Source: Bacteroidaceae bacterium (GTDB taxonomy: Bacteria; Bacteroidota; Bacteroidia; Bacteroidales; Bacteroidaceae). From it: a stretch of 32,724 nt of DNA. The stretch covers positions 1 to 32,724 of the forward strand of contig JAFVSR010000101.1 of assembly GCA_017503645.1 (NCBI GenBank). Reading direction: 5' to 3'. Each line of letters begins with the position of its first letter. The stretch's first letter is position 1. The translations under genes and the position numbers were made by a program. The notes under the pieces were generated by a model. That model ran no database searches and had not been told where the DNA came from. It saw only the letters and a list, made by a program, of their open reading frames with translations. Below are positions 403-25,744 of this stretch, piece after piece.

Positions 403-2082
403 TTAGCTATACATAAATCGGCGGATACTCTGTTTAGGAGTTTTCTCAAATGGTTTGCGACGGATTTCGGTATAACCGATTTTGCTGTAGGCTGCAAGTT
501 CGTCGTTGAGCGCAAGCACGTTTGCATCCACCATCTTGTTTACCTCTTCTTCGCTGTGGCCGTCGCGTTTGGCGGCATCGTAATCGGGCACTACGAGTGC
601 GACAATTGCGTTCTTGCGCCCCACAACCAACGACTCCACCACATAGGGCAGGTTGTTTATCTTATCCTCTATCTCCTCGGGGTAGATATTCTGGCCGCTT
701 GCTGTGAGAATCATATTCTTGCAACGGCCTTTTATAAAGAGGTTCTTGCGTGCATCCAGAATACCCATATCGCCGGTGCGCAACCAGCCATCGGATGTGA
801 ATGCGGCTTTCGTTGCCTCTTCATTGTTATAATAACCAAGCATCACGGCATCACCCTTTACCTGAATCTCACCAAGCACTCGGCGGGGATTTGCTGAATC
901 GATACGCAGTTCGATGGGGTGTGCCAATGTTCCGCAAGAGTACTTGACGAACTCTTTTCTATCGCGGTATGAGATAAGGGGGCCGCACTCGGTCATACCA
1001 TAGCCCACGCAATAGGGGAACTTCATACGCTTGAGCAGGTCCTCAACCTCGCGGTTAAGGGCTGCACCTCCAATAATGAGGCCGAGTGTGAAGCCACCAC
1101 CAAATGCTTCGAGCAATGCCTTGCGAATTTTGTTAAGCACCAAACGGTCGAGGCCGGGCACCTTCAACAGATATTTTGCAGGGAATTTGCGTATTTGGGG
1201 GAACACCTTCGATTTGAAAATCTTTTCAATAACCAACGGAACAGTAAGGAACATAAAAGGCTTAACTGTTGCAAGGCCGGCCAATAGGCGGGCAGGTGTG
1301 GGCTTGCCGGGCATAACAAAGACGTGACAACCGCTTGCTATGGTATAGAGCACATCAAAAGCCTGGCCAAACATATGTGCCATTGGCAAGATGGCAAAGA
1401 TGTTGCCGCCCTCGCTACCAGGCAACACACGCAAACCGAAATCGAGGTTCACCGATAAAGAACGGGCAGGAAGAACTACACCCTTTGATGTTGCACTTGT
1501 TGTGCCCGATGTGAAACTGATTTCCACAACTGCCTCCATATCCTTCTCCTCTTTATAATAGTTCACGAGGTCGGCAGAAAGGCCGTCGGGGAAGCGCGAA
1601 GAGTAATGCGATGCAATATTTTCTCCCGCATTCGCAAAGCTCTCGATAGATGCGTGTACTACACTGATATCCTTGACATTAAGTATTCCTGCAAAGCCAT
1701 CAATAGTCTCCAATTGCTTTATGAGTTGTTCATCGGCTTTTATTCCGTTTACTGCAATGTCGTCGGCTATAAGGAGCTTGCACTCCGAGAAGCAGGAAAG
1801 CTCCACTACGGCGCCGGGAAGGAAGTCGGGAAGGAAGGGAACGGTTACTGCATCATAGGTGAGTGTTGCAAAATATGCTATCGCCCACTCGGCCGAGTTG
1901 CGTGCATAGAGAGCAATCTTGTCGCCCTTCTTAACGCCTGCCTCTTCGAAGAAAATGTGATACTTTTCTATGCCCTCTGCCAACTGACCATACGTGTATG
2001 TCTGCGCGCCAAAATTGGTCAATGCGGGCATATCCCAATGTTTCTTTATAGATTCATTGATGTGATACAAAAAGTGTTTCAT
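403..2082 (-). CDS. AMP-forming acyl-CoA synthetase-like ligase, paralog 1
   Basis: This 559-residue protein belongs to the adenylate-forming (ANL) superfamily, whose members activate a carboxylate with ATP and usually transfer it to CoA; a fatty acid is the likeliest substrate, by family. Visible motifs are the adenylation signature YGMTECGP, the TGD motif in the segment LRTGDMG, the hinge segment KGRCKNMILTASGQNIYPEE, and a C-terminal KTPKQSIRR that carries the candidate catalytic lysine. The P-loop at residues 191-201 reads TSGTTSATSKG: it is one residue longer than in the two neighbouring paralogs and lacks their proline. The protein has no signal peptide and is presumably cytoplasmic. 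It is the last of three tandem copies. A terminator-like hairpin lies between it and paralog 2, so it is probably transcribed separately. Confidence 0.85.
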   Translation of the reverse strand: MKHFLYHINESIKKHWDMPALTNFGAQTYTYGQLAEGIEKYHIFFEEAGVKKGDKIALYARNSAEWAIAYFATLTYDAVTVPFLPDFLPGAVVELSCFSECKLLIADDIAVNGIKADEQLIKQLETIDGFAGILNVKDISVVHASIESFANAGENIASHYSSRFPDGLSADLVNYYKEEKDMEAVVEISFTSGTTSATSKGVVLPARSLSVNLDFGLRVLPGSEGGNIFAILPMAHMFGQAFDVLYTIASGCHVFVMPGKPTPARLLAGLATVKPFMFLTVPLVIEKIFKSKVFPQIRKFPAKYLLKVPGLDRLVLNKIRKALLEAFGGGFTLGLIIGGAALNREVEDLLKRMKFPYCVGYGMTECGPLISYRDRKEFVKYSCGTLAHPIELRIDSANPRRVLGEIQVKGDAVMLGYYNNEEATKAAFTSDGWLRTGDMGILDARKNLFIKGRCKNMILTASGQNIYPEEIEDKINNLPYVVESLVVGRKNAIVALVVPDYDAAKRDGHSEEEVNKMVDANVLALNDELAAYSKIGYTEIRRKPFEKTPKQSIRRFMYS

Positions 2083-2180
2083 TATATAAAAAGATTGTAT
2101 GAGATTATTTTAATTTTGCGAATATAGCCTTTCTTTTTATTTTTCGGCTGCAAATATCCGCATTTTTTTAGAAATACAAA

Positions 2181-2220
2181 AGAAAATTGCACAAATTAAC
2201 TCGCTTTGTGCAATTTTTCT
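2181..2220. other. Long stem-loop upstream of ligase paralog 1
   Basis: A 15-base left arm (2181-2195) pairs with a 16-base right arm (2205-2220) with one bulged base; the loop has nine bases. It sits about 100 bases upstream of the minus-strand start at 2082. In the minus direction the stem is followed by a short T-rich run, so it may be a second terminator or a leader hairpin. A role as an operator is also possible. Confidence 0.45.
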
Positions 2221-2270
2221 AACAACAGCAGTGAATAAGCGTGACAGATTTAACACATTTTTACAAATAG

Positions 2271-2310
2271 GCGTAAAAAAGGTGCGCAAGCCGCAGAGCC
2301 CACGCACCTT
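2271..2310 (-). terminator. Rho-independent terminator of ligase paralog 2
   Basis: Read on the minus strand, the arms AAGGTGCG and CGCACCTT (2303-2310 and 2279-2286) form a stem that is immediately followed by a run of T (the plus-strand A run at 2275-2280). It lies about 27 bases after the stop of the ligase at 2338, the classic arrangement for an intrinsic terminator. Confidence 0.75.
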
Positions 2311-2337
2311 CCAATTAAAATAATCTACAATCTCTCT

Positions 2338-4011
2338 TTATTTGTACATAAATCTCTTAATACTCAATTTGGGAGTTTTGGCAAAAGGCTCTTTCATAAG
2401 CTCGCAAATGGTGAGCTTGCTGTAGGGAGGTAGCTGGTCGTTGAGAGCAAAGAGGTTCTCCTCCATTGTCTTTTGCAACTCCTCGGGCGAGAGGCCGGCC
2501 TCGGCCACAGCATCGGGGTTGGGAACAATGAGCGCTGCAAGGCCGTGCTTGCGGCCAACAACCAACGACTCCATAACCATAGGCAACTGGTTTACAAGTT
2601 CCTCTATCTCCTCGGGGTATATATTCTGGCCGTTGGTCGTGAGAATCATATTCTTGCAACGGCCCTTGATGAAGATGTTCTCATCTTTGTCCATTGTACC
2701 CATATCACCTGTTTTCAACCAGCCATCGGCAGTGAAGGTGGCTGCAGTAGCCTCTTCGTTCTTGTAGTAACCAAGCATAACGGAATCGCCCTTTACCTGA
2801 ATTTCACCGGGTACCTTGCCGGGGTTCTCCGAGTCGATGCGGACCTCAACACCGGGATGTGCCACAGCACCGCAGGAACGGAAAACAAAGTTGGGCCACT
2901 CCTTGTAACTGATAAGGGGGCCGCACTCGGTCATACCATAGCCCACGCAATATGTGAATTTCATCTTCTTCATTAGCTGCTCCACATCCTTACTTATGGC
3001 CGCGCCACCGATGATGATACCACCCTTGACAATCTTGTCACCAAAGGTATCGATAAGCTTTGCACGCACCTTGCCAAGTATCAGCGAACTGATTCCGGGA
3101 ATCGACAGGAGCACGCGCATAACGGGCTTCCGCAACTGGGGCATCACTCTCAAGCGGAAGATTTTTTCCACCAACAAGGGCACTGTGAGGAACATAAAGG
3201 GCTTCACATCGGCAATAGCCTTGAGGAGGCGTGCAGGGATTGGTTTCTCGGTGAAGATATTTATATGACTACCCGATGAAAATGGGAAGAGGAAGTCGAA
3301 TACCTGGCCGAAAATATGCGCCATAGGCAATATTGAAAGGATGGAATCCTCGGGCATCGCTTTAATATGTACGCGTGCATACTCCACGTTGGCCGACAGG
3401 GAACGCGATGTGAGCATTACACCCTTGGGCGAACTGCTTGTACCCGATGTATAGCTGATAACCGCAAGCGCATCGAGGTTTGTTTTGGCATAATCGACAC
3501 GGTCGGGTGTTACACCGTTGGGGAAATAGGTTGCAAAGGCCTTTTCCACCTGTGCTTCAATATCATCGAGTTTGCCATTGCAATTGCTATGAACCTGCAT
3601 ACCGACAATATCCACAATGCCGCAGAAATCCTCTATGGCAGCAAACTGAGGTACGATATTATCGCGAGTGAGGCCACCAAGAACAGCTTTGTCAACCAAA
3701 AGCAAACGGCTGTCGGACATACGTGTGAGGTCGGCAACATTCTGCGGGAGGAAGTCGGGTAACAGAGGTACAACTACAGCATCGTATGTTACCACGGAAA
3801 GATATGCAACACACCACTCTGCCTGGCTACGGGCGCAAAGAGCTATTTTTTCGCCTTTCTTAATGCCACACTTTTCAAAAAGTATATGCATTTTTTCAAT
3901 CTCCGATGCCACAACGCCATAGGTCATTGTGTTTGCACCATAGTTAGTCAACGCAGGGCGGTTCCAATTGGCTTTGATAGCCTCGTCAATGTAGGACAAA
4001 TAGTGTTTCAT
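2338..4011 (-). CDS. AMP-forming acyl-CoA synthetase-like ligase, paralog 2
   Basis: This 557-residue adenylate-forming ligase is closely related to its two neighbours; all three begin MKHxLxxI and share the PDFLP or ADFLP segment near residue 86. The P-loop TSGTSSSPKGV is at residues 188-198, and the YGMTECGP signature, the TGDMG motif, the KGRCKNMILTTNGQNIYPEE hinge and a C-terminal KTPKLSIKR lysine motif are all present, so the enzyme looks intact. The likely reaction is ATP-dependent formation of an acyl-CoA from a carboxylic acid; the substrate cannot be read from sequence. It starts 45 bases after the stop of paralog 3, with no hairpin between them, which suggests co-transcription. A terminator follows it. 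Confidence 0.87.
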   Translation of the reverse strand: MKHYLSYIDEAIKANWNRPALTNYGANTMTYGVVASEIEKMHILFEKCGIKKGEKIALCARSQAEWCVAYLSVVTYDAVVVPLLPDFLPQNVADLTRMSDSRLLLVDKAVLGGLTRDNIVPQFAAIEDFCGIVDIVGMQVHSNCNGKLDDIEAQVEKAFATYFPNGVTPDRVDYAKTNLDALAVISYTSGTSSSPKGVMLTSRSLSANVEYARVHIKAMPEDSILSILPMAHIFGQVFDFLFPFSSGSHINIFTEKPIPARLLKAIADVKPFMFLTVPLLVEKIFRLRVMPQLRKPVMRVLLSIPGISSLILGKVRAKLIDTFGDKIVKGGIIIGGAAISKDVEQLMKKMKFTYCVGYGMTECGPLISYKEWPNFVFRSCGAVAHPGVEVRIDSENPGKVPGEIQVKGDSVMLGYYKNEEATAATFTADGWLKTGDMGTMDKDENIFIKGRCKNMILTTNGQNIYPEEIEELVNQLPMVMESLVVGRKHGLAALIVPNPDAVAEAGLSPEELQKTMEENLFALNDQLPPYSKLTICELMKEPFAKTPKLSIKRFMYK

Positions 4012-4056
4012 TTTACCAATAATTTAACTAATACAGGTTAATCAATTATTACTAAA

Positions 4057-5736
4057 TCAGTTATACATAAACCTTTTTATACTCAACTTAGGAGTTTTCT
4101 CAAACTGTTCGCGACGCATTTCACAACGGCTTATCTGGCTGTACACTGGCAGCTTCTGGTTCAGCGCTATCACAGCCTGCTCTATCGACGCCTGCGCCTC
4201 CTCGGCCGAAATACCGGCAGCCTTTACCGCGTCGGGGCTCATTACCACCAAAGCCACAAGCGAGTGTTTGCGACCAACCACCAAAGACTCCATAACATAA
4301 GGAATGGCGTTTATCATCTCCTCAATCTCCTCGGGGTAGATGTTCTGGCCGCTACCGGTGAGAATCATATTCTTGCAACGGCCCTTGATGTAAACAATGC
4401 CGTAACGGTCGCGAATACCCATATCGCCTGTTTTCAACCAACCATCGGATGTAAACGAAGCCTTTGTAGCCTCTTCGTTTTTGTAATAACCGGTGGTGAC
4501 AACATCGCCTTTTACCTGAATCTCACCGGCAATACGTGCGGGAGCATCGGAATCTATGCGCAAGTCGAGTGTGGGAGAGGTTATGCCACCTTCGTTGAAC
4601 AATGTGGGGTGATTATAACCCTTATAGCTTATGAGCGGACCGCACTCGGTCATACCATAACCCACTGCATAGGGGATTTTCACCTTTTGCATAATTTTAT
4701 CCACATCGCGGCTTATGGCAGCACCACCAATGAAGAAACCACGCTTGCCCAGGTTGCCGCCAAAGGCATCTATAATAGTTTTACGCACCTTCTTGAATAT
4801 CAGCCGGCGCACACCGGGAATAGCGGTGAGGAAACGCATAACAGGCTTGTTGAGCGTGGGGATAACCTTTGAGCGGAAGATTTTCTCTATAAGCAAAGGT
4901 ACTGTGAGGAAGATGAAGGGCTTCACATCGGAAAGAGCCTTCAACAACCTCGCGGGCACAGGGCGCTCTGTAAATATGTGCATATGACAACCATACGATG
5001 TCATAAGAATGAAATCGAATGCAAGGCCGAATATGTGAGCCAAAGGCAGAATAGAGAGGGTTTTGTTATCCTCCTCCTCGTTCACGGGAACAAGTTTATG
5101 CGCCATTTCCAGATTACCCGACAGCGATTTTGCGGGCAACATCACTCCTTTGGGCGAGCTGCTTGTACCGGATGTATAACTGATGACATTCAAATCGTCA
5201 AGATCACCTACCTCAAATTTAACATCTGCAACAGTGAAGCCCTGGGGAAAACGAGCATTGAAGGCTGCATCCAAATCTTCTTGCACAACTTTAACATCGC
5301 TACCACAACTATCTATGGTTTCACACTTTACAATATCTATAACACCCTGCAAGTCTTCGTAATCGGCAAACTGTGAAATAATATTGTCGCGAGTGAGATT
5401 ACCCAATATCGTCTTATCTACAAAAAGCAGGCGGCTGCCCGATATCTTTGTGAGGTCGGCAATATTTTGGGGAAGAAAATCGGCAAGCAATGGAACTGCC
5501 ACTGCACCATAAGTTGTTATTCCATAAAATGCAATACACCACTCTGCAGAGTTACGTGCACAAATGGCTATGTGGTCGCCTTTTTTGATATCATATTTAT
5601 TAAATAGGATATGCATTTTCTCGATACCGGCAGCTAATTCGCCATAGGTGTAGCTGTTTGCACCATAGTTTGTAATGGCAGGGCGGCTCCAATGTTTTTT
5701 GATAGCAGCCTCAATGTAAGTTAGGTAGTGTTTCAT
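4057..5736 (-). CDS. AMP-forming acyl-CoA synthetase-like ligase, paralog 3
   Basis: This 559-residue ligase is the first of the three tandem copies in transcription order. The frame is open to 5805, but the ATG at 5736 was chosen because it gives the MKHYLTYIEAAIK start shared with the paralogs; the 23 extra residues have no counterpart. Motifs are the P-loop TSGTSSSPKGV (188-198), YGMTECGP, TGDMG, a KGRCKNMILTGSGQNIYPEE hinge and a C-terminal KTPKLSIKR. No Shine-Dalgarno sequence is visible; the start is preceded by an A/T-rich stretch, as is usual in Bacteroidota. It probably forms an operon with paralog 2. Function beyond acyl activation, most likely acyl-CoA synthesis, is inferred from the family. 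Confidence 0.87.
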   Translation of the reverse strand: MKHYLTYIEAAIKKHWSRPAITNYGANSYTYGELAAGIEKMHILFNKYDIKKGDHIAICARNSAEWCIAFYGITTYGAVAVPLLADFLPQNIADLTKISGSRLLFVDKTILGNLTRDNIISQFADYEDLQGVIDIVKCETIDSCGSDVKVVQEDLDAAFNARFPQGFTVADVKFEVGDLDDLNVISYTSGTSSSPKGVMLPAKSLSGNLEMAHKLVPVNEEEDNKTLSILPLAHIFGLAFDFILMTSYGCHMHIFTERPVPARLLKALSDVKPFIFLTVPLLIEKIFRSKVIPTLNKPVMRFLTAIPGVRRLIFKKVRKTIIDAFGGNLGKRGFFIGGAAISRDVDKIMQKVKIPYAVGYGMTECGPLISYKGYNHPTLFNEGGITSPTLDLRIDSDAPARIAGEIQVKGDVVTTGYYKNEEATKASFTSDGWLKTGDMGIRDRYGIVYIKGRCKNMILTGSGQNIYPEEIEEMINAIPYVMESLVVGRKHSLVALVVMSPDAVKAAGISAEEAQASIEQAVIALNQKLPVYSQISRCEMRREQFEKTPKLSIKRFMYN

Positions 5737-5940
5737 AAAATAATTATTAAATGTGTTAATATCGGGAATCCCGCATAACGTGATGCCGCCAAACGTCGCA
5801 AGCACCTATCAATACGCAAGCATTCCTTTTACGCATTTGAATAGTATTTTGGAGTTATTTTCAGCGCAAATTTCGCACATCATTTCAAGAAAATAGAATT
5901 TTCGCGATAAAGAGGGGTTATGAGTGGTTAAAACTCAGTT

Positions 5941-10966: not shown

Positions 10967-12148
10967 TTAATAAACAATGTCGGGGAGGATTCCCGTGAGG
11001 GCAGCTATTGCAATACCGTAATTTGTGATGGGCACGCCTTGTGCACGCGCCTGACGTACACGCGACAGCACGTGGCGGCGGGTGAACATACAGGCACCGC
11101 AGTGTATCACAATATCATAGGGCGAGAGGTCGGCCGGAAAATCGTTGCCCGACACTATATCCACTTGCAAATTGTCGCCAAAGCGTTTACGAAGAAGGCG
11201 CGGGAGCTTCACGCGCCCAATATCTTCGTTGGCGGGAATATGGGTGCAGGCCTCGGCTATGAGCACACGACTGTTGCCACCCAATGCAAGCAGACGGGTT
11301 GCGCCTGCGCGGAAAGTGTCGATGTCGCCTTTGTGGCGCGCCATAAGCACAGAAAAGGATGTGAGGCGGGTGCCTTGCGGTATCTGCTGCTTCACTTGCG
11401 GGAACACCTGCGAGTCGGTTATCACCAGTGCAGGAGGCTCCTTGAGCGAGGATAGCAGGCGTGGCAGTTCCTCGGGAGCGCAACACACGGGCATACAATG
11501 TTTGTCGAGCAGGTTACGCAGTGTCTGCACCTGCGGCATTATAAGGCGACCTGTGGGAGCTTGGGCATCCTGAGGCATCACCAACAGAACCACATCGCCT
11601 GCCTTCACAAGCGAGTGTGTTATATCTTCGATATTGGCATCGTTGCTGTGGCAGGCGGCTATGCGCTCGAGCAACTGTGGCAACCCCTCGCCTGTAACGA
11701 CCGAAACGGGAATGACATCGACCGACAATGCACTGCCCCACTCCTGTAATGCAGTTGCGCCCTCGTCGCTACGGGCAAGCAGATATATCACGGGCACATC
11801 GGCTTTGGCAAACAGCTGCTGCCACTCCTTTTCCACCGCCGCATCGGCAGGGCTGCCTGTGAGCAATACAAGCGCAAGGTCTATGCGGGCAATGGCGCGG
11901 CGTGTGCTATCGACACGCATATCCCCAAGCGGGCCGCAATCGTCGTAACCAGCAGTGTCACCAATTACGGCAGCGCCTATGCCGGGGAGCTCTATGTTTT
12001 TCCACACCACATCGGTGGTAGTGCCTGCCACATCGCTCACAATGGATACCTGTTGCCCCGTGAGGGCGTTTATGAGCGAGGATTTCCCGGCATTGCGACG
12101 GCCGAAAATTCCTATATGGTAGCGTGAGGAGCGGGCGGTGGTTGTCAT
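10967..12148 (-). CDS. hydF: [FeFe]-hydrogenase maturation GTPase HydF
   Basis: HydF is the scaffold and carrier that receives the diiron precursor made by HydE and HydG and delivers it to apo-hydrogenase. The 393 residues show a G1 loop GRRNAGKSS (16-24), a G2 region TTTD (43-46) and a G3 DTAG (64-67). The cluster-binding residues are CTH at 301-303 and HCGAC at 349-353, as expected for HydF. The G4 position reads LLARSDEG instead of the NKxD usual in GTPases, so guanine specificity may be altered. The gene starts 12 bases after hydG and is followed after 18 bases by the GH43-like gene. Confidence 0.95.
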   Translation of the reverse strand: MTTTARSSRYHIGIFGRRNAGKSSLINALTGQQVSIVSDVAGTTTDVVWKNIELPGIGAAVIGDTAGYDDCGPLGDMRVDSTRRAIARIDLALVLLTGSPADAAVEKEWQQLFAKADVPVIYLLARSDEGATALQEWGSALSVDVIPVSVVTGEGLPQLLERIAACHSNDANIEDITHSLVKAGDVVLLVMPQDAQAPTGRLIMPQVQTLRNLLDKHCMPVCCAPEELPRLLSSLKEPPALVITDSQVFPQVKQQIPQGTRLTSFSVLMARHKGDIDTFRAGATRLLALGGNSRVLIAEACTHIPANEDIGRVKLPRLLRKRFGDNLQVDIVSGNDFPADLSPYDIVIHCGACMFTRRHVLSRVRQARAQGVPITNYGIAIAALTGILPDIVY

Positions 12149-12160
12149 AGGTGCAAAGTG

Positions 12161-13579
12161 TTAGAAACGGAAATCGCGCTCGCCATTCTCTATGGCATCG
12201 AGATACTTGGCTGCTGTGGCGCGGGCCTTTTCGTTGGGCACGTCATTCAACAGCCTTTTTATCATAGCCTCGCCCTTGGCACGTGTTTCGGGCGATGCGT
12301 AGTCTTTCAGATACTCCTTGAGCGTGAGCAGTGCGTTGGGCAGGCAACAGTTCGATATCTGCCCGTTTTTAAGCAACGTCATAAAACGGTCGCCCGTGCG
12401 CCCTTCGCGGTAGCAAGCTGTGCAGAACGATGGAATGTGGTCGAGGTCGAGCAACCAACCCACCACCTCGTCGAGCGAGCGATGGTCGGCAATGTCGAAC
12501 TGCGCGGAGTTTTCCTCCTCGCTCTCCTCGGTGACGTAACCGCCCACACTTGTACGCGAGCCACCGCTTATTTGCGATATACCAAGTTCCAGCACCTTCT
12601 CGCGGCTCTTCACACTCTCGCGTGTGGAAATAATCATACCGGTATATGGCACGGCTATGCGTATAATAGCCACTATCTTGTGGAAAATTTCGTCGGGCAC
12701 CGCGTTCTTGAAATCGGCGGTATCGATGTCGTCGGCTGCGCACAGGCGGGGAACGCTTATAGTGTGCGGGCCCACACCGTATGTTGCCTCAAGATGCTCG
12801 GCGTGCATAAGCAGGCCGATGAAATCGTAGCGATAGGTTTCCAGACCAAAGAGCACACCTATGCCCACATCGTCTATGCCGCCCTGCATTGCACGGTCCA
12901 TAGCCTCGGTGTGGTAGGCATAATCTTTTTTGGGGCCTGTGGGGTGAAGCGCCTCGTAGTTCACCTTATTATATGTCTCTTGGAACAGGATATATGTGCC
13001 AATGCCGGCCTCTTTAAGGCGGCGGTAGTTTTCAACCGTGGTGGCGGCAATGTTCACATTCACACGGCGTATTGCACCATTCTTGTGCTTAATGCTGTAG
13101 ATGGTTTTAATACTCTCCAGGATATATTCGATGGGGTTCATCAAAGGATGCTCGCCCGCCTCTAATGCCAAACGCTTGTGCCCCATATCCTGCAGGGCTA
13201 TCACCTCGGCACGTATCTCCTCCTGGGTGAGTTTCTTGCGATGTATGGTTTTGTTCTTTGCGTGATAGGGGCAATAGACACAGCCGTTCACGCAGTAGTT
13301 CGACAAGTAAAGAGGAGCAAACATCACTATGCGATTGCCATAGAACTTATGCTTTATCTCACGCGCAAGCGCATACATCTGCTCTATCAAATCAGCATCG
13401 GTACACTCGAGCAGAACGGCAGCCTCGCGGTGGGTAATACCCTTGCAGGCACGCGCCTTTTCCAAAATGTTTTTCACCAATTCCCTGTCTCCGGCCTTGT
13501 CGGCCGCATACTCTATTGTGGAGCGAATCTCACTGTCGCTTATGAATTCTTCGGCTTTTAATGATTTTGCGTCATACAT
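12161..13579 (-). CDS. hydG: [FeFe]-hydrogenase maturase HydG (radical SAM tyrosine lyase)
   Basis: HydG cleaves tyrosine to give the CO and CN ligands of the H-cluster. The 472-residue protein has the radical-SAM cluster motif CX3CX2C (C96, C100, C103), a ThiH/HydG-type barrel, and the C-terminal auxiliary-cluster motif CX2CX22C (C386, C389, C412). Length and motifs are normal for HydG, so the enzyme looks functional. It is the first gene of the minus-strand cluster hydG-hydF-GH43-peptidase-EamA. The upstream 279 bases are shared with a divergent ATPase gene that separates hydG from hydE. Confidence 0.96.
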   Translation of the reverse strand: MYDAKSLKAEEFISDSEIRSTIEYAADKAGDRELVKNILEKARACKGITHREAAVLLECTDADLIEQMYALAREIKHKFYGNRIVMFAPLYLSNYCVNGCVYCPYHAKNKTIHRKKLTQEEIRAEVIALQDMGHKRLALEAGEHPLMNPIEYILESIKTIYSIKHKNGAIRRVNVNIAATTVENYRRLKEAGIGTYILFQETYNKVNYEALHPTGPKKDYAYHTEAMDRAMQGGIDDVGIGVLFGLETYRYDFIGLLMHAEHLEATYGVGPHTISVPRLCAADDIDTADFKNAVPDEIFHKIVAIIRIAVPYTGMIISTRESVKSREKVLELGISQISGGSRTSVGGYVTEESEEENSAQFDIADHRSLDEVVGWLLDLDHIPSFCTACYREGRTGDRFMTLLKNGQISNCCLPNALLTLKEYLKDYASPETRAKGEAMIKRLLNDVPNEKARATAAKYLDAIENGERDFRF

Positions 13580-13784
13580 ATCTTCCCCATTTTACGGGCG
13601 CCGCACTCGCCAGCAAGGCACGCCGACACCCTCTTCTAAAATTGAGGTGCAATTTACATATTTTTTTTGAAAAAGAACCGCAGAAGGGGGAATTATCTTA
13701 GAAATAAACGGCCCGTAGGGATTTTTGGAGATGGAATGACGCAACTGTGTTTAGATGGGAAAAATTCATTTTGAGTACTTTTTA

Positions 13785-13816
13785 TTTGGCATTTCTCTTT
13801 ACAGGCGTTATCTTTG
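13785..13816 (+). promoter_or_regulatory. Promoter of the AAA_14/DUF4143 ATPase gene
   Basis: TTTG at 13785-13788 and TATCTTTG at 13809-13816 match both boxes of the Bacteroidota primary-sigma promoter, with a 20-base spacer. The start codon follows 42 bases later. The rest of the 13580-13858 gap shows no gene; a promoter for hydG on the minus strand is expected there but no clear match was found. Confidence 0.65.
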
Positions 13817-13858
13817 CTGAACAAAAATGCGTATTGACGCAAAAATATTCAGTGCCAT

Positions 13859-15112
13859 ATGGAAATTAAGCGTGATTTATACCTAAACAAACTCATTAGG
13901 AGTATGCACAACGGAATGATAAAGGTTATAACCGGAATCCGCCGTTGTGGTAAGTCTTATTTACTTTTCAACATTTTTAGCGACTATCTGAAAACCTGTG
14001 GAGTAGATGATGAGCACATAATCAAGATCGATTTGGAGGACCGTCGCAATAAGAAACTTCGCAACCCCGATGCTTTACTTGAATATATTGACGCACGTAT
14101 TGCAAAGGATGGTATGCACTATGTGATGCTTGATGAGGTACAATGGGTGGATGAATTTGAGGATGTACTGAATAGTTACCTTAAAATTCCCAATGTCGAT
14201 GTATATGTAACGGGCAGCAACTCCAAATTCTTATCGAGTGATGTTATTACTGAATTTCGTGGTCGTGGGGATGAGATAAAGGTTTCCCCTCTATCGTTTA
14301 GCGAATTTTTCTCTGTCTACAACGGCTCCCGCGAGGAGGCTATGGAAGAGTTTATGACTTTTGGAGGACTCCCTATGATTGCAACAATGCAGGGCAATGA
14401 GGAGAAGATGAAATATCTTCAAACACTCTTTAAGAAAACATACATTACAGATATCTTGGAGAGATATAAAATCAAGAACAAAGAAGAGTTGGAGGAACTC
14501 ATCAATATTCTTTCTTCGTCAATCGGAGGTCTTATCAATCCTAACAAATTGCTAAACACATTCAAATCGGTCAAAAATGTATCTATCTCTCCAAATACCA
14601 TTAGTTTCTACCTTGAGATATTGCAAGATGTCTTTATGGTAGAAAAATCCATACGATATGATATTAAAGGTAAGAGATATATTGACACTCCGGCAAAATA
14701 CTATTTCGCCGATTTAGGTTTGCGCAATGCACGTATAAATTTCCGCCAGCACGAGGTAACTCATTTGATGGAAAATCTCATATACAATGAACTTCGCACT
14801 CGTGGATTGATGGTTGACGTGGGTGTTGTTGTGGTAAATACTAAAGATGAGAAGGGCAAGAGCCAACGTAAACAATTGGAAATTGATTTTGTATGTAACG
14901 AGGGTAGTAAACGATGTTACATACAATCAGCCTTGAAATTACCCAATGAAGAGAAGCGAGAACAGGAATTACGCTCGCTGATAAATATATCGGACAGTTT
15001 CCAAAAGTTTATAATCACGGAAGACCCCATAAAGCGTTATCAAGATGAGAACGGAATTATTTTTATGAATATCTATGAATTCCTGCTTGATAAGGATAGT
15101 TTGAGAGTTTAA
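13859..15112 (+). CDS. AAA_14 / DUF4143 ATPase
   Basis: This 417-residue protein has an N-terminal P-loop ATPase with Walker A GIRRCGKS (26-33), Walker B YVMLDEVQ (88-95) and a TGSNSKFL sensor-like segment (118-125). Its C-terminal DUF4143 domain includes YYFADLGLRNA (281-291), ENLIYNEL (305-312) and EIDFV (341-345) with a YIQ segment at 354-356, a pattern like PD-(D/E)xK nuclease folds. Family members are abundant and mobile in Bacteroidota, and their role is poorly defined; toxin-like or defence functions have been suggested but are not shown here. The gene is clearly richer in A/T than its neighbours and is inserted between hydE and hydG. Its stop lies two bases from the convergent stop of hydE. 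Confidence 0.87.
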   Translation: MEIKRDLYLNKLIRSMHNGMIKVITGIRRCGKSYLLFNIFSDYLKTCGVDDEHIIKIDLEDRRNKKLRNPDALLEYIDARIAKDGMHYVMLDEVQWVDEFEDVLNSYLKIPNVDVYVTGSNSKFLSSDVITEFRGRGDEIKVSPLSFSEFFSVYNGSREEAMEEFMTFGGLPMIATMQGNEEKMKYLQTLFKKTYITDILERYKIKNKEELEELINILSSSIGGLINPNKLLNTFKSVKNVSISPNTISFYLEILQDVFMVEKSIRYDIKGKRYIDTPAKYYFADLGLRNARINFRQHEVTHLMENLIYNELRTRGLMVDVGVVVVNTKDEKGKSQRKQLEIDFVCNEGSKRCYIQSALKLPNEEKREQELRSLINISDSFQKFIITEDPIKRYQDENGIIFMNIYEFLLDKDSLRV

Positions 15113-15114
15113 GA

Positions 15115-16182
15115 TTACAACAAAGATTCTGTTTGAGGGAAATCCCCCCTGCCGTAATCTATGTGGTACCCTATTTCTCCAAGACGGGCGGCAAGCAGTT
15201 GCAGGCTTTGAGCCGACTCGCTGCCGCTGCTTTTTTTATTGTTGTATATGGAGTATTTGTCGCGCACATCCATTGGCGACAGGTTGGGCATCACCACGTT
15301 GGCACCGGCCAGAATGCCACGTTCCATTCCGTCGGGCAGCAGTGTGGCAAGGGCTGTGGTGGCGGGAATGAGGGCTTTAGGGAAGCGCAAGCGTAGGAGC
15401 GAGAGCAGCAACAGGGTAAGTTCGGCACTGCCTGCCGGTGATGTGGCGAAGGGGGTGCCTGCTGCGGGAATAAAGGGCCCTATGCCTATCATTTGCGGCT
15501 GCAATTCATCAAGAAAAACGAAATCCTCGGCTATGTGTTCGGGCGTTTGCCACGGGGAGCCTATCATCATACCGCTGCCCACCTGGTAGCCGAGTTCTTT
15601 CAGTGTGAAAAGAGAGTGCTTGCGGTGCGCGTCGCTCATTGAGGCCGGGTGCAGGCGGGCGTAATGGGAGGGAGAGGCCGTTTCGTGGCGCAAAAGATAG
15701 CGCGCGGCGCCGGCTGCGCGAAAGGCGGCATAGGCTTCACGGCTGCGCTCGCCCACCGATAGTGTGATTGCTTTTTCGGGGTATTCACGGTGGATGGCTG
15801 CCACCACATCGGTTATGAAGCGATCGGTTTGCAGGGGATCCTCACCACCCTGCAAAACAAATGTATTAAAGCCGAGTTCCGCACCCTGCCTGCAGCAGGC
15901 AAGTATCTGTTCCTTGGTGAGGCGGTAGCGCGATGCCTCTTTGTTGGCACAGCGCAGGCCGCAGTAGTAGCAGTTGTTCTTGCAGTATGAGCTTATCTCC
16001 ACAAGCCCGCGCACAAAAACACCGCGACCAAAGTGCTCGCGGGCCACAGTGGCGGCAAGGGTGGCAAGGGCTGCACGCTCCTCGCCTGCGGGGAGCGAGA
16101 GGAGGGAAAGCCAATGGTGCTTTTCCATTATTTCGCCTGCCGTGAGGCGCTCCACTATGGCCGAAAACTCCGTTTTATTCAT
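15115..16182 (-). CDS. hydE: [FeFe]-hydrogenase maturase HydE (radical SAM)
   Basis: HydE is the radical-SAM maturase that, with HydG and HydF, builds the diiron subcluster of the H-cluster. The 355-residue protein has the CX3CX2C motif at C67, C71 and C74 (SYCKNNCYYC), then QGGEDP and a BioB-like barrel with GIGPFIPAAGTPF. The ATG at 16182 is preferred to a TTG 18 bases further upstream. The gene is divergent from the hydrogenase gene at 16346 and convergent with the inserted ATPase gene, so it is transcriptionally cut off from hydG and hydF. Confidence 0.93.
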   Translation of the reverse strand: MNKTEFSAIVERLTAGEIMEKHHWLSLLSLPAGEERAALATLAATVAREHFGRGVFVRGLVEISSYCKNNCYYCGLRCANKEASRYRLTKEQILACCRQGAELGFNTFVLQGGEDPLQTDRFITDVVAAIHREYPEKAITLSVGERSREAYAAFRAAGAARYLLRHETASPSHYARLHPASMSDAHRKHSLFTLKELGYQVGSGMMIGSPWQTPEHIAEDFVFLDELQPQMIGIGPFIPAAGTPFATSPAGSAELTLLLLSLLRLRFPKALIPATTALATLLPDGMERGILAGANVVMPNLSPMDVRDKYSIYNNKKSSGSESAQSLQLLAARLGEIGYHIDYGRGDFPQTESLL

Positions 16183-16212
16183 TTTTTTTACTTTTCGCAA
16201 GAAACATTATTG

Positions 16213-16220
16213 CAAAAATA
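16213..16220 (-). promoter_or_regulatory. Possible -7 element of hydE
   Basis: On the minus strand TATTTTTG matches the TAnnTTTG box and lies 30 bases upstream of the hydE ATG. No good -33 TTTG was found at the right distance, so the call is weak. The intergenic space 16183-16345 must also hold the hydrogenase promoter; GATATTTGCG at 16286-16295 is a near match only. Confidence 0.35.
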
Positions 16221-16345
16221 CAAGAAACAAAGTTTTTTTAACTATTTTTACAGCAAATTTTGGAACTGTGGGTTTAATCGGGCAGATATTTGCGCGTGGC
16301 AGTTCCCTTAAACGGCATATAAAAACACATTTATTCTTAAAGACT

Positions 16346-17785
16346 ATGGCATATAATAATAATGTTATGTTTGTAAGATATCGTCTTTTGGCAGAATTGG
16401 TATCTATGTGGAAGAACGACGAACTCGTTGAGAAGATAGACCGCCTGCCCTACCTGCTTCATCCCCGTAACCAAAAGCCGCAAGGCCGTTGCTGCATACA
16501 CAAAGAGCGTGCGGTTACGAAGTACAAAACAATGGCTATGCTCGGTTTCTCGATGAAAGACGAGTATGACGAAATAGATTCTCTGCAGCACTACGCGCAG
16601 CGTATGATGGACCGCGAGAACATTTCGCAAGGGAAGGACATTCTGCACGTGATGGACGAGGCTTGTTCATCGTGCATAAAGACAAACTACGAGGTGTCGA
16701 ACCTGTGCCGCGGTTGCGCTGCACGCCCCTGCTACACAAACTGCCCAAAGGATGCCATCTACTACGACAACGACGGCAAGGCCCACATTGACCACGACAA
16801 ATGTATAAGCTGTGGCAAGTGCCACCAGGTGTGCCCCTACCACGCAATCATTTATATGCCCGTACCTTGCGAGGAGGCGTGCCCCGTGAAGGCCATCTCA
16901 AAGGACGAGTATGGCGTGGAGCACATAGACCCCGAAAAGTGCATCTACTGCGGCAAGTGCCTCAACGCCTGCCCGTTTGGTGCCATATTCGACAAATGCG
17001 AGGTGTTCGACGTTCTCAAGCGCATACGCAGTGGCGAGAAGGTGATTGCAATGGTTGCCCCCGCCGTGCTTGCACAGTTCGGCCAGCCGAGCGAGCAGGT
17101 TTACGGTGCACTCAAAGCCATAGGCTTCAGCGATGTGATTGAGGTGGCATACGGTGCCGAGGAGACAATACGCCGCGAAAGCGAGGAGTTGAAGGAGAAG
17201 ATTGAGGAGGGCGCTGCGTTTATGACAACAAGCTGCTGCCCCGCATATGTGAACCTTGCACGCAAGCACATACCCGACCTTGTGAAATATGTATCGTCAA
17301 CAGGCTCACCGATGCACTACACCGCCGAGTATGCCAAAGAGAAGTTCCCCGGCTGCGTAACGGTGTTCATAGCCCCCTGTGCATCGAAGAAGGCCGAGGG
17401 TATAGAGGATGCCAATGTGGATTTCGTGTGGACCTTCCGCGAGCTCGACTCGGTTATTCAGGGTATGGGCGTGGATATTGAAACATCCATCCCCTACACA
17501 CCTACCGAGGTTGCATCGAAGGATGCTCACAATTTTGCAAAGACAACCGGCGTATTCACTGCCGTGAAGAACTACATAGGCCAGGCCGAACTGGAGGGCA
17601 CGGTTATTGCCGACCTCAACAAGAAGAACATTGCCCTGTTGCGTGCATATGCAAAAACAGGCAAATGCCCCACAAAGATGGTGGAGGTGATGTCTTGCCC
17701 GGGTGGTTGCATCACAGGCCCCTGCTCTTGCAGCCAGGGCGGCGAGGCTGCACGCCGATTTGAGGCCGAGGTTAAACGCAAATAA
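16346..17785 (+). CDS. [FeFe]-hydrogenase, ferredoxin-domain type (group B-like)
   Basis: This 479-residue enzyme would interconvert protons and H2 with ferredoxin-type electron partners in the cytoplasm. Cysteine motifs for several [4Fe-4S] clusters occupy residues 107-218, including CISCGKC (153-159) and CIYCGKC (199-205). The H-cluster motifs follow: TSCCPAY (295-301), APCASKK (343-349) and MSCPGGCITGPC (449-460), giving ligands C297, C345, C451 and C455. The L3 motif lacks the GGGQP that follows in the classical group A enzymes, which fits group B, known from gut Bacteroidota. The frame is open from 15974, but that part is antisense to hydE; the ATG at 16346 begins the homologous region. 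It lies next to hydE, and phoH follows 21 bases later. Confidence 0.92.
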   Translation: MAYNNNVMFVRYRLLAELVSMWKNDELVEKIDRLPYLLHPRNQKPQGRCCIHKERAVTKYKTMAMLGFSMKDEYDEIDSLQHYAQRMMDRENISQGKDILHVMDEACSSCIKTNYEVSNLCRGCAARPCYTNCPKDAIYYDNDGKAHIDHDKCISCGKCHQVCPYHAIIYMPVPCEEACPVKAISKDEYGVEHIDPEKCIYCGKCLNACPFGAIFDKCEVFDVLKRIRSGEKVIAMVAPAVLAQFGQPSEQVYGALKAIGFSDVIEVAYGAEETIRRESEELKEKIEEGAAFMTTSCCPAYVNLARKHIPDLVKYVSSTGSPMHYTAEYAKEKFPGCVTVFIAPCASKKAEGIEDANVDFVWTFRELDSVIQGMGVDIETSIPYTPTEVASKDAHNFAKTTGVFTAVKNYIGQAELEGTVIADLNKKNIALLRAYAKTGKCPTKMVEVMSCPGGCITGPCSCSQGGEAARRFEAEVKRK

Positions 17786-24342: not shown

Positions 24343-24374
24343 ATTATGGCTGCTTGCGCGCAAGCAGCCATAAT
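24343..24374. terminator. Palindromic hairpin after the histidine phosphatase
   Basis: A perfect 32-base palindrome centred on GCGCGC (24356-24361) lies eight bases after the stop. Its arms contain GGCTGCT/AGCAGCC, shared with the hairpins at 345-378 and 20566-20605. The T-rich tail is short, so termination may be partial. Confidence 0.7.
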
Positions 24375-24391
24375 TTGTCACCGAAAACATT

Positions 24392-25744
24392 ATGAAGAAA
24401 GCAGTTTTGCTACCATTATTGCTTATTGGGTTGCTGTTACCCTTCACTGCCTGCAGCGATTCCGACAACAGCAACGAAACAAACCCGCTTGTGGGCTATT
24501 GGCACATTGCCGATAACGGCAGAATAGTATCGCTCAGGATAGAGGAGAACGGCACAGGCAAGGCCGCCATTTATACATACAACGGAAACGAGTGGAATAT
24601 AGATAATTTGCCATTGCAATACACCATAGCCGATGGCCATATCGCCATAAAAGCCGGCAACGATTACACATTGAGTGGCAAAATGGCTATTACGGGAGCA
24701 TCGCTTTCTATAACCGACAACGGCAATGTAACAATGTTCACCGGGTACGATGGCGGGGATAGTATAATAAAAATCCTGCAAATGAACATCGAAAACAATT
24801 TTACGCAAGGTGGAGGTAACGACGCCGGAGGCGACGACGATGGCAACAACGATGGCAACAACGATGGCAACAACGACAAAGACGATGAAATAATAATATT
24901 GCCATCTGTATCGAAAGAGGATTTATTTCAAACAGAAGCACATGTCCTCGCCGCACTTGCTGCAACATACATAAACATCGTATCGTTTGAAGCAGCCCAA
25001 CTGAACTTGGAGAATATAATAATCACGGGCAAAGATATGACAGGTGTTCCTAGGAGCATTACCGCCACTATGCCCGAGATTGAGGAGTGTTGGACAAATG
25101 CATACAAAGCAATAAACCAGTGCAACACAATAATTGAGTACGCAAATGAGGAGTACGGCAAATATGCCGACGAGGCAAAAGCACTGCGCTGTTTCTTATA
25201 TTATAACGTTGCCCATTTGTGGGGCAAGGCACCCTTCATAACAGCAGCCGATGTTGATATTGCAACTTCTTTACCCGTGCACGAACAATATGAGCTGTTC
25301 AACATTATTTACGACGAAATTGAGATGCTGCTCCCCTATTTCGAAAATAGCATTGCGGGTAATTATCGTATAGATGCGGGGGCGTTGCTTGCCATACAAG
25401 CGGAAATTGAGCTAAGTGTCGGCAACAAGAGTGTTGCGTGTGAACTGCTTTCGCGCTGCCAACCCAATTTCAGCCTATCAATAAATGAAAACCAAAAAGA
25501 GCTGTTTTCTATTTTTGGCAATAAGATAACGCTATACACACCCAAGTATGTGGAATTATTAACGCAAGAAGCTCAAGCAGCAGAGAACCTCCCTGCGTTG
25601 TGGAACGAAAAAAGCGGTTCCTCATACGGCTATTGGGCAATGCTAAAGCGTATAGGCAAGGCTGATATTGAATATAAGTTGATGCCTATCCCCGAAAATG
25701 AACTTACATTTAACCCCAACCTAACACAGAACCCAGGATATTAA
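24392..25744 (+). CDS. Lipoprotein: N-terminal beta-rich (calycin-like) domain fused to a short SusD-like domain
   Basis: This 450-residue protein starts with a lipoprotein signal; FTAC puts the acylated cysteine at residue 21. Residues 32-125 begin NPLVGYWHI and alternate short beta-type strands, resembling the small lipocalin-like domains of Bacteroidota lipoproteins. A glycine/asparagine/aspartate linker (about 138-166) contains three exact DGNN repeats. Residues 175-450 look like SusD/RagB: NAYKAINQCNTIIEYA, then EAKALRCFLYYNVAHLWG, a helical segment with YRIDAGALLAIQAEIEL, and the hallmark ending LMPIPENELTFNPNLTQNPG. SusD proteins bind glycans at the surface with a SusC TonB-dependent transporter and are usually near 500-600 residues. 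Here that part is only about 275 residues and there is no SusC gene. Binding function is likely; the ligand is unknown. Confidence 0.75.
   Translation: MKKAVLLPLLLIGLLLPFTACSDSDNSNETNPLVGYWHIADNGRIVSLRIEENGTGKAAIYTYNGNEWNIDNLPLQYTIADGHIAIKAGNDYTLSGKMAITGASLSITDNGNVTMFTGYDGGDSIIKILQMNIENNFTQGGGNDAGGDDDGNNDGNNDGNNDKDDEIIILPSVSKEDLFQTEAHVLAALAATYINIVSFEAAQLNLENIIITGKDMTGVPRSITATMPEIEECWTNAYKAINQCNTIIEYANEEYGKYADEAKALRCFLYYNVAHLWGKAPFITAADVDIATSLPVHEQYELFNIIYDEIEMLLPYFENSIAGNYRIDAGALLAIQAEIELSVGNKSVACELLSRCQPNFSLSINENQKELFSIFGNKITLYTPKYVELLTQEAQAAENLPALWNEKSGSSYGYWAMLKRIGKADIEYKLMPIPENELTFNPNLTQNPGY
24839..24874 (+). repeat. Three perfect 12-bp tandem repeats
   Basis: The unit GATGGCAACAAC occurs three times without a mismatch, in frame, and encodes the DGNN linker repeats of the fusion lipoprotein (residues 150-161). 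A fourth, partial copy is degenerate. Being a multiple of three, length changes would alter the linker without breaking the reading frame. Confidence 0.9.

Follow-up and report, generated by a model that had tools for sequence, protein, structure and literature searches.

Related systems and position of the locus

Few surface proteins of gut Bacteroidota are as common as those of the SusD type. Surface glycan-binding proteins (SGBPs) such as SusE and SusF, with their usual Ig-like repeats, are another group of surface lipoproteins found in these bacteria.

In the available portion of the report on BT_3984 (PMC2954216), the loop-rich region is described as following TPR3, and TPR4 as extending the superhelix. 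The same portion locates the sugar site at the boundary between the two subdomains, of which the C-terminal one is rich in loops, and speculates that a conserved face composed of the second half of TPR1, TPR2, the first half of TPR3, and the C-terminal helices might bind SusC (PMC2954216). The sugar contacts given for Bt1762 in the excerpt of the corresponding source include C298, R368, and Y395 (PMC7782687).

The protein dealt with here is encoded in a stretch of 32,724 nucleotides of a Bacteroidaceae bacterium (contig JAFVSR010000101.1 of assembly GCA_017503645.1), which was analyzed as a whole and is referred to below as the window. TPR1-3, the beginning of TPR4, the C-terminal helices, the PIP...NP.L.QNPG tail, and the lipoprotein character are shared with the SusD/RagB proteins (PF14322, PF07980; BT_3984, Bt1762), whereas about 110 residues between TPR3 and TPR4 and most of TPR4 are missing, an extra N-terminal domain is present, and there is no adjacent SusC. 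The N-terminal domain is about 95 residues long, like the lipocalin-like domains known in Bacteroidota (PF13648 Lipocalin_4, DUF5640, and BT_0846, PDB 2m4l), but it scores below the cut-offs and is fused to a SusD module. Like the SGBPs (SusE/SusF), the protein is predicted to be a surface lipoprotein whose binding domain is separate, but the window gene is not located beside a SusC/SusD pair, and a SusD-derived module takes the place of the Ig-like repeats. Among the matches listed in a search of open-licence papers, no title or beginning of an abstract described a SusD family of this kind, and the proteins in question, which we call "compact SusD" proteins, apparently form an undescribed group.

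Organization of the gene and the protein

The gene consists of a single intact ORF encoding 450 amino acids on the forward strand (24392-25744), with no internal stop codon. The following features were assigned to the gene and its upstream region:

24343..24374, + strand: hairpin between the upstream histidine-phosphatase-family gene and the window gene (fold z-score -4.8)
24392..25744, + strand: whole gene, predicted to encode a lipoprotein consisting of a lipocalin-like domain, a linker, and a compact SusD (ORF; eight fusions with the same order, including the window gene)
24392..24454, + strand: signal peptide up to the lipobox cysteine C21 (by eye; C21 is invariant in alignment A2)
24482..24766, + strand: probable lipocalin-like N-terminal domain, residues 31-125 (DUF5640 sub-threshold; Lipocalin_4 in L033; 2m4l; alignment A7)
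24821..24880, + strand: Asp/Gly/Asn-rich linker with repeated DGNN, residues about 144-163 (sequence and alignment)
24884..25741, + strand: predicted compact SusD module, residues 165-450, 286 amino acids (hhalign against 15 canonical SusDs; PDB profile search)
24884..25447, + strand: putative equivalent of TPR1-TPR3, residues 165-352 (profile alignment; anchor spacings close to canonical)
25526..25573, + strand: ITLYTPKYVELLTQEA, putative equivalent of the first TPR4 helix of SusD (profile alignment and anchor spacings)
25625..25663, + strand: YGYWAMLKRIGKA, signature of the short compact SusDs (alignments A5 and A6)
25685..25741, + strand: C-terminal SusD tail PIPENELTFNPNLTQNPGY (SusD_RagB profile positions 270-297; PDB tails)

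The ORF, the lipobox cysteine, the N-terminal domain, the DGNN linker, and the C-terminal PIPENELTFNPNLTQNPGY had been recognized in a preliminary description of this DNA, and all of them lie where that description placed them. The DGNN linker is absent from the Rikenellaceae homologs in the alignment. Residue C21 is followed by S-D-S-D, which, as judged by eye, resembles but is not identical to CS(D/E)2, a motif reported for the surface export of SusG in the part of the source available (PMC6222051). The scan for promoters and terminators gave no signal clearly exceeding the shuffled expectation, and no NCBIfam family exceeded its own cut-off either in the window protein (E ≤ 1) or in 10 relatives (E ≤ 0.01).

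Homology of the C-terminal module with SusD

Judging from the profile comparisons, the C-terminal module is a SusD homolog. The Pfam family SusD-like_3 (PF14322) matched residues 217-290 above its cut-off (31.2 vs. 27 bits), and SusD_RagB matched residues 425-450 by its last 28 positions only, below its cut-off (20.7 vs. 23.1). The SusD-type tail PIP..E...NPNLTQNPGY is present in the window protein, as established from the Pfam profile and the tails of PDB entries. When 15 compact modules were aligned with 15 canonical SusDs using hhalign, the module was covered end to end with a probability of 100 and an E-value of 3.9e-41, which bears out over the whole module the SusD-type domain, or reduced SusD, proposed in the preliminary description. 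A PDB profile search performed with the 15 compact modules retrieved SusD-family chains, the best of which was 6gcz_A (E 1.4e-21). The SusD and lipocalin-like fold assignments both derive from sequence profiles.

The canonical set (alignment A3) comprised 15 of 20 ORFs, which were picked on the basis of their length and completeness; L013, L015, L035, L038, and L041 were not used, and two of the 20, L035 and L041, turned out to belong to the long compact type. Since these canonical SusDs were retrieved by the window protein or its profile, they constitute a non-random sample, and their SusC neighbors were not verified singly.

Internal loss of the loop-rich lobe

The compact modules are 281-347 amino acids long, as compared with 440-543 amino acids in the canonical SusDs (15 proteins in each case). 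The "half-size SusD" of the preliminary description was therefore roughly correct in terms of length, but the fact that the missing stretch is internal rather than terminal had been missed. To measure spacings, 25 compact and 15 canonical proteins were aligned jointly and anchors were placed on the alignment. N-terminally, both spacings were alike in all the groups. The distance from TPR3 to the first TPR4 helix was 51-55 residues in seven lipocalin fusions, 47-77 in eight other short compact proteins, and 76-99 in 10 proteins of the long type, vs. 127-211 in the 15 canonical SusDs; the gap is about 110 residues smaller than the canonical one (medians 54 vs. 166). The median distances from TPR4 to the GYW anchor were 21 in the lipocalin fusions, 25.5 in the other short proteins, 49 in the long type, and 54 in the canonical SusDs, and those from GYW to the PIP tail were 22, 22, 22, and 31, respectively.

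Simple truncation ("half a SusD") was rejected, since both the end-to-end profile alignment and the anchor spacings indicate that the loss is internal. On this alignment evidence, the compact SusD retains TPR1-3, the first TPR4 helix, and the PIP...NPNLTQNPG tail, and all the compact forms examined are without most of the predicted loop-rich lobe, which in canonical SusD contributes part of the sugar site; the majority of the short ones have a shortened TPR4 as well. In the window protein, the lobe expected ahead of ITLYTPKYVELLTQEA is mostly absent. The Bt1762 residues C298, R368, and Y395, as numbered in the excerpt of the source, fall beyond the aligned part of the chain (93-256), where the chain index and the residue numbering may be offset.

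The N-terminal domain

The window protein scored below the Pfam cut-off for DUF5640 (16.5 vs. 28.5), and Lipocalin_4 exceeded its cut-off in L033, a fused homolog belonging to the same clade (23.9 vs. 22.4 bits). The profile built from seven N-termini gave a weak PDB match with BT_0846 (2m4l; E 0.022), and its comparison by hhalign with the Lipocalin_4 region of L115 also gave a weak match (probability 4.7, E 0.0026). The N-terminal domain of the window protein is likely to be lipocalin-like, judging from these profiles. The "calycin-like domain" of the preliminary description thus finds support in the L033 score and the weak 2m4l match, although the window protein itself remains under the cut-offs.

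Distribution of the fusion and exchange of the N-terminal domains

The first search covered 61 genomes: that of the window, 36 from the same genus, and 24 from the same order. The fused protein was found in four of the 37 genomes of the genus (the window's own genome, G018, G010, and G009, at another location in the case of G009). Of the five loci retrieved in the collection search, two were those of the G018 and G010 proteins already found, and three were copies in Rikenellaceae MAGs (L029-L031). One further fusion came from the order search (393 genomes), in G294, which is 99% complete and belongs to another genus of the window's family. Fusions showing the same order therefore total eight including the window gene, in two families and at least three genera. 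The preliminary description had proposed looking for the same domain order in several genera, and it was found in the genus of the window, in that of G294, and in the Rikenellaceae MAGs. In the window's own genome (86% complete, 108 contigs), the gene is present in a single copy, and apart from it nothing was matched at E ≤ 1 except, weakly, a SusD on contig C5.

At E ≤ 1e-20, matches were obtained in 15 of the 399 genomes of the family search, ten of which were new. Seven of the ten new matches were examined along their whole length: three of them carry Lipocalin_4 (L115), Fasciclin (L117), and Dockerin_1 (L120) domains, each above the Pfam cut-off, and the four others (L113, L114, L119, and L121) carry a region including EKGPF and ending with the EF-hand-like DFNGDGVID, which gave no Pfam match and was labeled by eye. 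This KGPF type is also represented by L118 and L122, whose copies are broken or cut, and EKGPF occurs at the start of L116 too. In L034, which was obtained in the order search, the compact SusD is preceded by a short N-terminus; no clear lipobox was recognized by eye in L034 or L120. When the C-terminal 82 positions alone served as the query (E 1e-9), eight of the 393 order genomes and 28 of the 399 family genomes were matched, and matches located in open frames of more than 630 amino acids that were new to the first set accounted for five of the eight and nine of the 28, respectively. The ten of these proteins that were read and the eleven whose neighborhoods were retrieved (L171-L181; 634-777 amino acids) are of a longer type, in which the compact SusD has kept TPR4 and 10 of the 11 starts contain the KGPF region; this region gave no Pfam match in L035, the single complete case scanned.

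In a quick, unrooted tree, the 25 compact modules were grouped on one side of a branch and the 15 canonical SusDs on the other (SH-aLRT 96); lacking a root, this tree does not demonstrate that the compact form arose only once. The seven lipocalin fusions included in the tree form one group (SH-aLRT 96), the eighth, L031, having been omitted. L031, which is 96.5% identical to L029, was also omitted from alignments A5 and A7; L116, L118 (stop inside), and L122 (cut frame) were omitted from A5 and the tree, and L121 from A6, and the Pfam scan was run without L116. Taken together, the relatives suggest that the compact SusD has been reused as a module behind swapped N-terminal domains. The fusion indicated in the preliminary description is real, but the fact that several other N-terminal domains precede such a compact SusD had escaped it.

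SusC and TonB-dependent receptor genes

Using the five SusC proteins of the window's own genome as tblastn queries, no SusC was detected in the window or in 20 stretches from relatives (18 distinct places, 7-20 kb); two of the three intended SusC controls were matched, and the third one, L035, is itself of the long compact type. Further tblastn searches detected SusC in none of the 11 long-type neighborhoods (L171-L181) and in all three of the G294 stretches carrying a full-length SusD. SusC was thus found near none of the 30 compact SusD genes (19 + 11) in their visible neighborhoods, some of which ended at contig ends: the upstream view extended over 263 bases in L135, 1.2 kb in L134, 1.4 kb in L030, and 1.5 kb in L029, and the downstream view over 0.8 kb in L123. 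To this extent, the lack of a SusC partner noted in the preliminary description holds true for the window and its relatives. In the long type, a gene encoding a TonB-receptor Plug domain (Pfam) starts 4 bases downstream of the compact SusD of L179, and a TonB receptor gene is convergent to that of L178. A home-made TonB Plug model matched only its two source sequences and none of the seven SusC-bearing controls, and was therefore uninformative; non-SusC TonB receptors at the other places were judged by eye from ORFs of at least 500 amino acids.

In the window's own genome, all five SusC genes exceeding the TIGR04056 cut-off adjoin a SusD match, one of which (on contig C77, in an 817-amino-acid frame) is below both Pfam cut-offs, and seven further SusC matches are below the TIGR04056 cut-off. 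An orphan SusC that might serve as a partner was looked for in this genome, and none was found over the cut-off. The SusC genes having an adjacent SusD amount to 36 of 38 in G294, 2 of 2 in G431, 3 of 3 in G430, 9 of 9 in G329, 3 of 3 in G429, 6 of 7 in G010, 7 of 8 in G018 (where one gene was counted from two pieces, each below the cut-off), and 6 of 7 in G009, the SusD side having been scanned with PF14322 only in these eight genomes. TIGR04056 misses divergent SusCs: three G294 SusDs scanned as unpaired adjoin divergent SusC-like genes. Of the two roles envisaged in the preliminary description, a stand-alone binder or a protein working with a distant SusC, the former is mildly favored, all five SusC genes over the cut-off in the own genome being paired.

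L185 (6338-8356) and L186 (5491-7524) each encode a full-length SusD that has an additional N-terminal region and lacks a clear SusC neighbor; tblastn gave a weak SusC match over 69 residues in L185 and none in L186.

Genomic context and selection

The neighbors of the window gene are housekeeping genes according to Pfam: those encoding phenylalanyl-tRNA synthetase, a histidine-phosphatase-family protein (gpm), an HhH-GPD DNA glycosylase (nth), and phosphoglycerate kinase. The gene is absent from the closest sibling genome, G013, where about 60 bases separate the flanking genes and the upstream flank shows 95.8% DNA identity over 1076 aligned columns; a variant of the hairpin has been kept there although the gene is absent. 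In G018 and G010, the gene occupies the same place and the proteins show about 48% identity with that of the window, as compared with 81-82% in the case of the nth proteins. From the sequences compared, the window gene thus seems to evolve fast, and its presence is patchy. Other ORFs occupy the gpm-nth gap in L095 and L106 (see below), so that genes may often be exchanged at this site.

Among the three Rikenellaceae copies, dN/dS values of 0.18-0.23 were obtained, which is indicative of purifying selection, and both domains were near 0.18 in the L029/L030 pair. Between the window gene and its nearest relatives, dS was saturated or not computable, so that no reliable dN/dS is available. The ORF upstream of L029, which looks by eye like a regulator, gave no Pfam match at 1e-5.

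Possible functions of the compact SusD proteins

The explanation we propose, which has in our opinion about an even chance of being correct, is that the window protein might be a surface-displayed binder lipoprotein in which the compact SusD would serve as a scaffold or docking module and not as a nutrient-binding lid. The lipid anchor would put the protein on the cell surface, the acidic stretch after the lipid-bearing cysteine resembling the CS(D/E)2 motif of SusG. Ligands would be bound by the lipocalin-like domain, and in the relatives by the fasciclin, dockerin, or another domain, and the compact SusD would form a TPR scaffold or docking module tethering the binding domain to a surface partner. 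The conservation of the domain order in eight proteins shows that this is one fused protein. The compact SusD may work without its usual transporter partner; the SusD face that is retained is the one speculated to bind SusC in the portion of the BT_3984 report available, and this fits docking on a transporter as well as a stand-alone role.

The protein might instead act in trans with a TonB-dependent transporter, the TPR face docking on a barrel encoded elsewhere and the lipocalin-like domain replacing the lost sugar lobe. This is possible but rather unlikely in our view. It is consistent with the match between the helices kept and the face speculated to touch SusC in the accessible text of PMC2954216, with the presence of one or two SusC genes having no adjacent PF14322 match in four of the nine compact-SusD genomes (G294, G010, G018, and G009), with the TonB Plug gene located directly downstream of the long-type L179, and with the case of BtuG-BtuB, where, according to the excerpt of the source, a TonB receptor is stably bound by a surface lipoprotein other than SusD. 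However, the five SusC genes over the cut-off in the own genome, an 86% complete assembly with seven sub-cut-off matches, are all paired, and the visible neighborhoods of the 30 genes show no SusC match. In addition, a lid after deletion of both hinge loops is described in the excerpt consulted as staying on SusC via about 15 residues after the lipid anchor, whereas a whole domain intervenes at this point here. We are still more doubtful about the wider idea that the compact SusD might be a docking adaptor plugging interchangeable binding domains onto TonB-dependent transporters or surface complexes in trans; if this was true, one barrel could serve several cargo-capturing lids (lipocalin-like, fasciclin, dockerin, and KGPF).

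The patchy distribution of the gene (four of the 37 genomes of the genus) and its absence from the sibling G013, despite the 95.8% identical upstream flank, are what might be expected of a decaying, functionless SusD paralog, but this seems very improbable: the fused homologs have intact ORFs and conserved motifs, dN/dS is 0.18-0.23 among the three Rikenellaceae copies and near 0.18 on both domains of the L029/L030 pair, and the same reduction is common to 25 modules. In the Rikenellaceae copies, purifying selection led to the pseudogene hypothesis being rejected. The joining of two genes by an assembly or annotation error, which the preliminary description had named as one finding that would overturn the fusion, has a negligible probability: the window does belong to a fragmented draft consisting of 108 contigs, but the ORF has no stop, and the same fusion recurs in independent assemblies from at least three genera. 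It is because eight fusions with the same order exist in two families that the fusion is not an assembly error, and the homologs thus rule out an artefact of this kind.

SusD is treated as one half of the SusC-SusD pair. A group of modules devoid of the sugar lobe, with swapped N-terminal domains and no SusC in view beside them, suggests that another task has been given to the fold. Since the long type has kept TPR4 and the present protein has a shortened one, these proteins also provide a natural deletion series for separating docking by SusD from binding. Automatic annotation probably labels such genes RagB/SusD, in which case polysaccharide loci would be miscounted.

Other genes observed

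In the gpm-nth gap of L095 and L106, which come from other genomes of the genus, an acyltransferase-like or glycosyltransferase-like ORF was recognized by eye. Elsewhere in the window, HydF-, HydG-, and HydE-like ORFs and an iron-hydrogenase-like ORF, all named by eye, occupy positions 10967-17785, and an AAA_14/DUF4143 ATPase gene (13859-15112; Pfam) lies between the HydG- and HydE-like genes. On the reverse strand, positions 403-5805 carry three mutually similar ORFs in tandem, which resemble by eye AMP-binding acyl-CoA/ACP synthetases.
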